DNA from: Huiozyma naganishii CBS 8797 | Taxonomy: Eukaryota > Ascomycota > Saccharomycetes > Saccharomycetales > Saccharomycetaceae | Reading direction: 5' to 3' | DNA: 64,000 nucleotides | NCBI RefSeq assembly: GCF_000348985.1 | Contig: NC_035931.1 | Coordinates: forward strand, 1-64,000 | Part shown: positions 10,729-51,388 of the stretch, piece after piece | Layout of the letters: every line of letters starts with the position of its first letter | How positions within the stretch are numbered: position 1 is the stretch's first letter | Program-made: the position numbers and the translations under genes | Notes under the pieces: generated by a model | Databases searched by the model: none | Told to the model about the DNA's origin: nothing | Seen by the model: the letters and a program-made list of their open reading frames with translations, nothing else

Positions 10729-11649
10729 ATGTCGAGATCGGTCAATGAGCGGAAGGTATATACCGTCACATTGGTTATATTCCTGTTCACTGTACTGCCG
10801 ATGGTTTGGATATTCTTGGAGGAGTACAACAGAATGGTGATGGGCGTTGCGTTTGTGGCGCTTGTGGCATGTGCTTGGTTTCTGTACCAGAACGGTACAC
10901 CCAGTCTGACTCCGGATGAATGGACGCCGCTCGAGTTTGAGAAGAAGAAGAAGATCTCGCAAAACACTTGCATGTACAAGTTCAAGCTCAGAAATCCGAG
11001 GGAAAAGCTGAATGTCCCCGTTGGGTACCATGTGTCGGTGAAATGTATAATAAACGGAAAAGAGGAGATTAGGCATTACTCGCCTGTCTCGCACGATGCA
11101 AAAGGGTACATTGAGCTCATCGTGAAGACATACCATACAGGGCACGTCTCAGAGTATTTTTCCGAGTTGAAAGCTGGTGATAAAGTACTTTTCCGTGGGC
11201 CGACTGGTGAATACCAATACCGCGAGCAAGAAAAGGAAATGACGCAACTTGGACTCGTCGCTGGTGGTTCTGGGATAACCCCGATGTTGCAGGTGCTCAA
11301 CGAAATTGTTTCCAAACCACTAGAGTTGAGTCGGGTGAGTTTACTCTACGCAAACGAGACAGAGGATGATATTTTGATGAAGAGCGAGCTCGATCAGATG
11401 GTTGCAAAATACCCGCATTTTGAGGTGCATTACGTCTTGCATCACGCCCCAAAAGACTGGGAGGGCAGCACTGGTCTCATTACAAAGAACCAAATGGAAA
11501 AATTTCTTCCTTCCTTTGCAGAAGATCACCGTTTGTTGATTTGTGGGCCACAGAACATGACAGAAATTGTTCTCGGTTTTGCTCGCGAACTCGGGTGGAG
11601 CAGCGGTATTCAGAAATCTAAAGGTGACAGTAAAGTATTCGTATTTTGA
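10729..11649 (+). CDS. PGA3: NADH-cytochrome b5 reductase family protein (Pga3/Aim33 type)
   Basis: A 306-residue flavoprotein with two N-terminal hydrophobic segments (about residues 10-28 and 36-55), placing it in a membrane, probably ER. The FAD-binding domain carries RHYSPVS and the phosphate-binding GHVSEYF segment. The NADH-binding domain has GLVAGGSGITPMLQ and LLICGP, and the protein ends in VFVF. S. cerevisiae keeps two duplicates, AIM33 beside ALO1 and PGA3 beside ERG13. Here a single gene sits between ALO1 and UFO1/ERG13. Its C-terminal half (SLLYANETEDDIL, YPHFEVHYV, ARELGW) looks closer to Pga3 as I remember it, so the symbol is a judgement. Such enzymes pass electrons from NADH to heme or sterol/lipid enzymes. 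Confidence 0.88.
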   Translation: MSRSVNERKVYTVTLVIFLFTVLPMVWIFLEEYNRMVMGVAFVALVACAWFLYQNGTPSLTPDEWTPLEFEKKKKISQNTCMYKFKLRNPREKLNVPVGYHVSVKCIINGKEEIRHYSPVSHDAKGYIELIVKTYHTGHVSEYFSELKAGDKVLFRGPTGEYQYREQEKEMTQLGLVAGGSGITPMLQVLNEIVSKPLELSRVSLLYANETEDDILMKSELDQMVAKYPHFEVHYVLHHAPKDWEGSTGLITKNQMEKFLPSFAEDHRLLICGPQNMTEIVLGFARELGWSSGIQKSKGDSKVFVF

Positions 11650-50266: not shown

Positions 50267-51388
50267 ATGAGCAGCAATTCCAGGACTTTGGAACTGGTCA
50301 GCAAGGACACTGTTGCCTCGCACAACCAGAAAAACGACGCTTGGGTCGTCGTACAAGGCAGGAAGGTCGTTGACATTTCTGCCTATATCAGAGAGCGTCC
50401 CGAGAAAGAGGAGCTTTTGCTGTCTTTGGCAGGGAAGGATATCACGGACCGGAGCCACGAGTTCCCCGGGTTGAACGCGGATGACCATCTCGTGGGGTAC
50501 TTGGCGACAGATTTGGAGGAAAAAGAGTTGTTGTCAAACAAGGACCACAAAGTTGAGGTCAAATTGGAAGGTGGTGAAACTTTCGACTCTTCCACTTTCG
50601 TCAAGGACTTGCCCACGGAGGATAAGTTGAGTATTGCCACGGACACAAAACGTGATTACCAGAAACATCATTTCCTGGACTTGGAAAAACCGTTGATCCC
50701 TCAAGTGCTGTTCGGGAGCTTCACAAAGGACTTCTACGTCGATCAGATCCACAGACCAAGACACTACGGGAAGGGTTCCGCCCCACTGTTTGGGAACTTC
50801 TTGGAACCAATCTCGAAGACCGCATGGTACGTCGTCCCCATCGTCTGGGGGCCCGTCGTCCTTTACTTCCTCGGGAGATCATTAAAGGGGATACACCCTA
50901 TCTTTGCCCTAATGCTCTTCGCACTGGGTGGGTTTGTATGGACTTTGATCGAATACTGCATGCACAGATTCCTGTTCCATTTCGATGACTGGCTACCAGA
51001 GAACAACGTCGCCTTCACCATCCATTTCTTACTCCACGGTGTACACCACTACTTGCCCATGGACGGTTACCGTCTAGTGGTCCCACCAGCTTTGTTTGTC
51101 GTCCTGTGCACTCCATTTTACAAGTTGGTCTTCAAACTGTTACCCCACTACGTGGCCTGTGCCGGGTTCGCAGGCGGTATGTTCGGCTACATATGCTACG
51201 ACTTGATCCACTACTTCTTACACCACTCGAAGATGCCAAAGTTCATGAGGAAATTGAAGCAGTACCACTTGGAGCACCACTACAAAAACTACCAATTGGG
51301 GTTCGGTGTCTCTAATTGGTTCTGGGACAAAGTGTTCGACACCTACTTGGGCAAAGACGCTCCAATCTCCCCAATGAAGTACGATTAG
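50267..51388 (+). CDS. SCS7: Sphingolipid fatty-acid alpha (C-2) hydroxylase with altered cytochrome b5 domain
   Basis: A 373-residue product (S. cerevisiae Scs7: 384) that hydroxylates the very-long-chain fatty acid of ceramide in the ER. The fatty-acid hydroxylase domain is complete. About four membrane helices carry the di-iron histidine motifs HRFLFHFDDWLP, HFLLHGVHHYLPMD, HYFLHH and YHLEHHYKNYQ. The N-terminal cytochrome b5 domain (residues about 5-80) is recognisable (DAWVVVQGRKVVDIS, AGKDIT, LVGYLATD), but the heme motif HPGG reads RPEK at residues 44-47, and the segment holding the second heme ligand is about ten residues short. Heme binding by this domain is therefore doubtful. The start MSSNSRTLEL aligns with the S. 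cerevisiae start. Confidence 0.94.
   Translation: MSSNSRTLELVSKDTVASHNQKNDAWVVVQGRKVVDISAYIRERPEKEELLLSLAGKDITDRSHEFPGLNADDHLVGYLATDLEEKELLSNKDHKVEVKLEGGETFDSSTFVKDLPTEDKLSIATDTKRDYQKHHFLDLEKPLIPQVLFGSFTKDFYVDQIHRPRHYGKGSAPLFGNFLEPISKTAWYVVPIVWGPVVLYFLGRSLKGIHPIFALMLFALGGFVWTLIEYCMHRFLFHFDDWLPENNVAFTIHFLLHGVHHYLPMDGYRLVVPPALFVVLCTPFYKLVFKLLPHYVACAGFAGGMFGYICYDLIHYFLHHSKMPKFMRKLKQYHLEHHYKNYQLGFGVSNWFWDKVFDTYLGKDAPISPMKYD

Follow-up and report, generated by a model that had tools for sequence, protein, structure and literature searches.

The SCS7 ortholog of the yeast Huiozyma (Kazachstania) naganishii CBS 8797 encodes a fatty-acid (ceramide) 2-hydroxylase whose fused cytochrome b5-fold domain is without its two heme ligands, which raises the question whether such an enzyme still works and, if it does, from where its di-iron site receives electrons. 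In the reading that we hold to be quite probable, the protein is a working Scs7 ceramide/fatty-acid 2-hydroxylase with a heme-free 'pseudo-b5' domain, the fold of which is largely kept, and free Cyb5 would feed the di-iron site.

The gene (50267..51388, + strand, 373 aa) lies in a window of 64,000 nucleotides, which is the whole stretch of DNA analysed here, and forms an intact open reading frame with zero internal stops. Its product matches S. cerevisiae Scs7 (sequence of PDB 4zr0) with 580 bits over residues 3-373, i.e. nearly the whole length, while a search of NCBIfam, a prokaryote library, assigned no family. The products of the neighbouring genes have domains of the NIF/BRCT, ubiquitin/UBA, Bul1 and Rce1 types, and we take these genes to be FCP1, DSK2, BUL1 and RCE1, in S. 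cerevisiae gene order. Searching the H. naganishii genome returned one full-length SCS7 match, the sole other match being a CYB5-like gene; a second intact SCS7 elsewhere in the genome is thus ruled out, and with it the objection, raised in the earlier note, that another complete copy might exist with this one unexpressed.

The b5-fold domain occupies residues 8-88 (50288..50530, +), with a Cyt-b5 profile match at residues 13-66 over the Pfam cut-off. Codons 44-47 (50396..50407, +) are CGT CCC GAG AAA, and in the alignment to homologs, 4zr0 included, the resulting R-P-E-K stands opposite HPGG of S. cerevisiae Scs7, as the earlier note had it, so that the first axial His and both glycines are missing. 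In place of the S. cerevisiae stretch HSDSAYEIL, which contains the second ligand H72, stands a shorter segment without HSxxA (residues 61-74, 50447..50488, +); the alignment has a gap at H72, the second-ligand column being alignment-dependent wherever this segment is shortened. The equivalent of S. cerevisiae residues 42-84 measures 34 aa in H. naganishii and 43 in S. cerevisiae, nine fewer where about ten had been estimated, and is 42-44 aa long in those 48 proteins of the tree set that keep the ligands. Structure models made for this protein alone, with 40 of 120 homolog sequences as input, place no more than a helical turn of 3 residues between helix 60-65 and strand 75-79. The domain therefore has the profile and fold of a heme-binding cytochrome b5 and lacks the HPGG first His and the second axial His; the retained fold also sets the protein apart from the plant-type, b5-less FAH enzymes. 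Several in-frame substitutions combined with a 9-residue shortening make a read error at RPEK implausible, the more so as neighbour lineages share the loss and P0024, the nearest tree neighbour of H. naganishii Scs7, is also without both ligands.

How far the change extends among relatives, a survey which the earlier note had proposed, was followed in the best 120 of 1605 Scs7 matches, and all SCS7 ligand counts given here apply to these 120 homologs. Both axial histidines are kept in 99 of them, and at least one is lost in 21 (in 12 of these both are gone, in 8 just the second and in 1 just the first), hence the loss is wider than the RPEK protein alone. In this scoring P0010, P0026 and P0046, with one His left, count as loss, and P0043, in which HPKA goes together with both His, counts as kept. 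The losers include, beside H. naganishii, Nakaseomyces glabratus (P0004), Monosporozyma unispora (P0005), Naumovozyma dairenensis (P0008), Vanderwaltozyma polyspora (P0020), Kazachstania africana (P0029), Eremothecium cymbalariae (P0030), Tetrapisispora phaffii (P0040), Eremothecium sinecaudum (P0044), Henningerozyma blattae (P0046) and Hanseniaspora valbyensis (P0085). Among the keepers are S. cerevisiae (P0015), Torulaspora globosa, Zygosaccharomyces bailii, Z. mellis, six named Lachancea, Ashbya aceris, Saccharomycodes ludwigii, Hanseniaspora osmophila and H. opuntiae.

In a phylogeny built from the hydroxylase portion alone (69 of the 120 homologs) the ligand state needs a minimum of 8 changes, at least 6 of which are forced by well-supported branches, and 14 losses are counted on the best tree if regain is barred. 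Constraining the 21 losers to be monophyletic carries a penalty of 346 log units (AU p 3e-69, a two-tree AU test under one model), by which a single ancestral loss is rejected. As 23 of 66 branches are open, precisely how many losses occurred is uncertain; the recurrence itself is not in doubt. Judged from the sequences, ligand loss is recurrent in yeasts.

All 21 loss proteins align with an N terminus of b5 length, and the Pfam Cyt-b5 cut-off is passed by H. naganishii Scs7 and, in a scan of 9 other loss proteins, by 7 of them; a Pfam Cyt-b5 hit alone is insufficient for an annotation of heme binding. In P0013 (no Cyt-b5 hit) and P0024 (20.2 bits vs the cut-off of 23.7) the b5 domain falls below the Pfam threshold with a normal hydroxylase score.

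Two other enzymes with fused b5 domains served as controls. The OLE1 domain has both histidines in 119 of 120 homologs (best 120 of 3143), nine species with ligand loss in SCS7 being among these keepers; the sole exception, P0209, is without the b5 region and, at 416 aa on a 1570-base contig, is probably cut off. In CYB2-type proteins both are present in 111 of the 112 that have a b5 region (among the best 120 of 7713, eight rows without this region excluded). The corresponding H. naganishii genes are KNAG_0F03250 (OLE1) and KNAG_0E03860 and KNAG_0E03880 (CYB2-type). These controls rule out that fused b5 domains have relaxed in general, and the decay is specific to SCS7; with 99 of 120 homologs keeping both ligands and the control domains doing the same, the loss in H. 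naganishii is not a matter of chance. Neither the recurrence nor the SCS7 specificity was within reach of a reading of the single window.

The CYB2 set gave two further observations. The eight proteins without b5 region (P0311, P0312, P0317, P0320, P0321, P0325, P0334, P0358) are CYB2-related FMN dehydrogenases of 375-400 aa, some of them named entries of Naumovozyma, Maudiozyma and S. cerevisiae. The only ligand-less case in the 112 listed matches with a b5 region is KNAG_0E03880 (L007, G000:C5:765289-768477, ORF 1219-2976, +), a tandem CYB2-like paralog adjoining CYB2 (L002), in which the ligands at the HPGG and LHA positions are both replaced and the FMN dehydrogenase domain, with its SNHGGRQ, remains intact. 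Its product may be a hydroxy-acid oxidase or dehydrogenase that works without heme. It resembles Scs7 in joining a ligand-less fused b5 to an intact catalytic domain and differs from it as a single case in its family and as an additional copy next to an intact gene.

Evolutionary rates after the loss were obtained from terminal branch lengths fitted on a fixed tree, relative to the hydroxylase, for 69 of the 120 proteins; the pocket was defined as S. cerevisiae residues 42-83 and the scaffold as the b5 domain outside it (7-41 and 84-99). The pocket rate was 6.26 in losers vs 1.04 in keepers, and with the group-defining motif columns taken out it was 5.31 vs 1.11 (0 of 5000 permutations). The scaffold rate rose 1.6-fold after loss, to 1.94 in losers vs 1.21 in keepers (44 of 5000 permutations as high; 103 for the N-terminal and 1101 for the C-terminal part), from which we conclude that scaffold constraint is partly relaxed, while the linker rate was 1.91 vs 2.02. 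When 29 close relatives were used as the keepers, the loser/keeper ratio was 4.75 for the pocket, 3.86 for the pocket without motif, 1.56 for the scaffold (116 of 5000) and 0.93 for the linker. None of the 21 loss proteins has a substitution at scaffold positions L11, W27, R33, G87, Y88, A90, E94 and L98 (S. cerevisiae numbering) or at G57, which lies in the pocket stretch. By these rates and identities the heme site is freed from constraint and most of the b5 fold is kept, which bears out the earlier statement that the rest of the fold is intact to the extent that the scaffold is mostly conserved.

The fast pocket, the mildly faster scaffold and a truncation of the b5 domain that is reported to be functional (PMC8918992) could be taken to mean that the fused domain is neutral debris awaiting deletion, with a functionless fold. 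We consider this unlikely, as the eight scaffold residues named above stay unchanged across several independent losses, the scaffold in losers evolves at about the rate of the linker of the same protein, and an N terminus of b5 length is found in each of the 21 loss proteins aligned. The alternative that heme binding persists in the domain, by way of other residues or a single ligand, we rate slightly lower again. It draws on His64 and His74, which lie in the altered segment of the H. naganishii protein, and on the first His left in 8 of the 21 loss proteins, where weak one-sided heme binding is conceivable; against it, the alignment columns reveal no replacement ligand conserved across the loss set, six of the 21 (P0008, P0013, P0028, P0029, P0040, P0044) are without any His in the pocket segment, and in 14 of 21 this segment is shorter than that of any keeper. 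MAPR proteins (Dap1/PGRMC1-type) hold their heme by a Tyr ligand; the pocket segment of H. naganishii Scs7 contains zero Tyr, and a separate protein encoded in the genome is presumably Dap1-like. In the favoured reading, with a heme-free domain on a working hydroxylase, both heme binding and electron transfer by the fused domain would be lost.

The catalytic half has the FA_hydroxylase domain (PF04116) at residues 219-359 (50921..51343, +; 54.1 bits vs the curated cut-off of 31), with H233, H238, H253, H257, H260, H261, H315, H319, H320, H334, H337 and H338. Thirteen histidines of this half are His in all 120 aligned homologs (best 120 of 1605) and all are present in H. naganishii, as had been claimed for the hydroxylase motifs; the presumed ligands of the di-metal site are among them. 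A further one, H173 of S. cerevisiae, is His in 115 of the 120 and is also present. The hydroxylase region is identical to that of S. cerevisiae at 160 of 214 positions. Scaled by OLE1, hydroxylase divergence from S. cerevisiae has a mean ratio of 0.93 in nine loss species and 0.96 in ten keepers (Mann-Whitney p 0.49), a crude measure since the distances share branches, and taken over 19 hand-picked named species common to both lists with Ambrosiozyma monospora omitted. The similar ratios and the conserved histidines give no sign of decay of the catalytic half after ligand loss. The least likely of the explanations, that 2-hydroxylase activity is lost, as the earlier note also considered, and that the whole gene is decaying with its b5 part ahead, can point to the ligand-less, fast-evolving pocket and to S. 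cerevisiae work cited in its favour (PMC10865788), and is disfavoured by this conservation, the similar hydroxylase rate of losers and keepers relative to OLE1 and the uninterrupted reading frame.

For a working hydroxylase with a heme-free domain, reduction of the di-iron centre in trans by a separate ER cytochrome b5 (Cyb5) with its reductases would be the most likely route, on the analogy of plant FAH1/FAH2. Sur2, Erg3 and Erg25 are likewise reduced in trans by Cyb5. The H. naganishii genome contains four PF04116 matches, SCS7 and three others without a b5 match at their loci, which we take to be ERG25-, ERG3- and SUR2-like; a loss of other PF04116 enzymes is therefore excluded. An intact CYB5-like gene with HPGG and HSDDA is also encoded, which lends substance to the earlier idea of a separate electron carrier, the source of electrons itself being our inference. 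Since only one of seven Cyt-b5 matches in the genome is CYB5-like, a compensating gain of an extra free b5 is rejected.

The reductase at 10729-11649, put forward before as a candidate donor partner, does not fit that role well. It has FAD- and NAD-binding domains and a paralog at 43% identity in the genome, and is flanked by an ALO-domain gene and an F-box gene; from this synteny with ALO1 and UFO1 we assume it to be AIM33/PGA3, not CBR1. A gene on contig 4 (L013, G000:C4, - strand), to which we give the name CBR1, NADH-cytochrome b5 reductase, on the basis of synteny, is apparently split over two frames near L013:1750-1830. The split may reflect an assembly error or a broken gene and, if real, would complicate electron supply to Cyb5. 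A search for an NCP1-type reductase gave four FAD_binding_1 matches as candidates.

A redox role of the fused domain that is dispensable in Scs7, unlike in Ole1, would explain the independent ligand losses in several yeast lineages. The fold may be largely kept because the domain packs against the hydroxylase or folds with it, or because it docks Cyb5. It is possible, although we put it forward only tentatively, that in the Scs7 of many yeasts the retained heme-free b5 has turned from an electron carrier into a structural or docking module, e.g. a platform for holo-Cyb5 at the ER surface, by repeated cofactor loss.

The statement that the b5 domain is required for S. cerevisiae Scs7 activity, from which the earlier note started, is doubtful. 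According to one review (PMC8918992), a b5-truncated hydroxylase is still functional, with reference to Zhu 2015, the yeast Scs7 structure paper; the sentence comes after one on mammalian enzymes and is loosely worded. The same text calls the fused partner important, not essential, and, with reference to Mitchell and Martin 1995, the title of which names the S. cerevisiae delta-9 desaturase, describes certain desaturases as having a fused b5 that is essential in vivo. The evolutionary pattern, in which Ole1 keeps its ligands and Scs7 often loses them, fits this contrast between an essential desaturase domain and a functional truncation, and speaks against 'required'. The human enzyme points the other way: the FA2H b5-domain missense variant Cys25Trp is reported to lead to the full FAHN disease picture (PMC10815826), and b5-domain mutations are said to lead to mild leukodystrophy (PMC8918992), so the fused b5 matters in man, which counts against a dispensable domain.

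Our literature search, which covered few subscription papers and does not thereby prove absence, found no paper on Scs7 heme-ligand loss, no lipid, heme or activity data for any ligand-less Scs7 and no 2-hydroxylated sphingolipid measurement for Candida glabrata or other loss species; a fused-b5 hydroxylase with an apparently recurrent pseudo-b5 domain in yeasts was not met there. A 2023 review (PMC10002949) leaves open whether cytochrome b5 can partially replace the fused domain of FA2H, for example in patients with mutations. On this question the yeasts bear as a natural experiment, apparently made several times over, in which the heme site is gone and the catalytic half is conserved, and the ligand-less Scs7 proteins offer natural variants for testing electron supply in trans.

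Compared with S. cerevisiae Scs7/Fah1 (PDB 4zr0, 4zr1), the H. naganishii protein has the same domain order, histidine pattern and N-terminal b5 fold, and 74% identity in the structurally aligned hydroxylase part, but S. cerevisiae keeps HPGG and HS, while H. naganishii is without both ligands and nine residues. The cytochrome b5 H43F/H67F variant (PDB 5xee) differs in being an engineered laboratory mutant. The acyl-CoA desaturase Ole1 is also a membrane di-iron-type enzyme with a fused b5, C-terminal in its case, in the same species; its ligands are nearly always kept, and ligand state cleanly separates these two fused-b5 enzymes. Plant FAH1/FAH2, as described in PMC10002949 and PMC9539407, need no fused heme domain to function and are reported to interact with free cytochrome b5, yet in plants the domain is wholly absent, whereas in H. 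naganishii Scs7 its fold remains.
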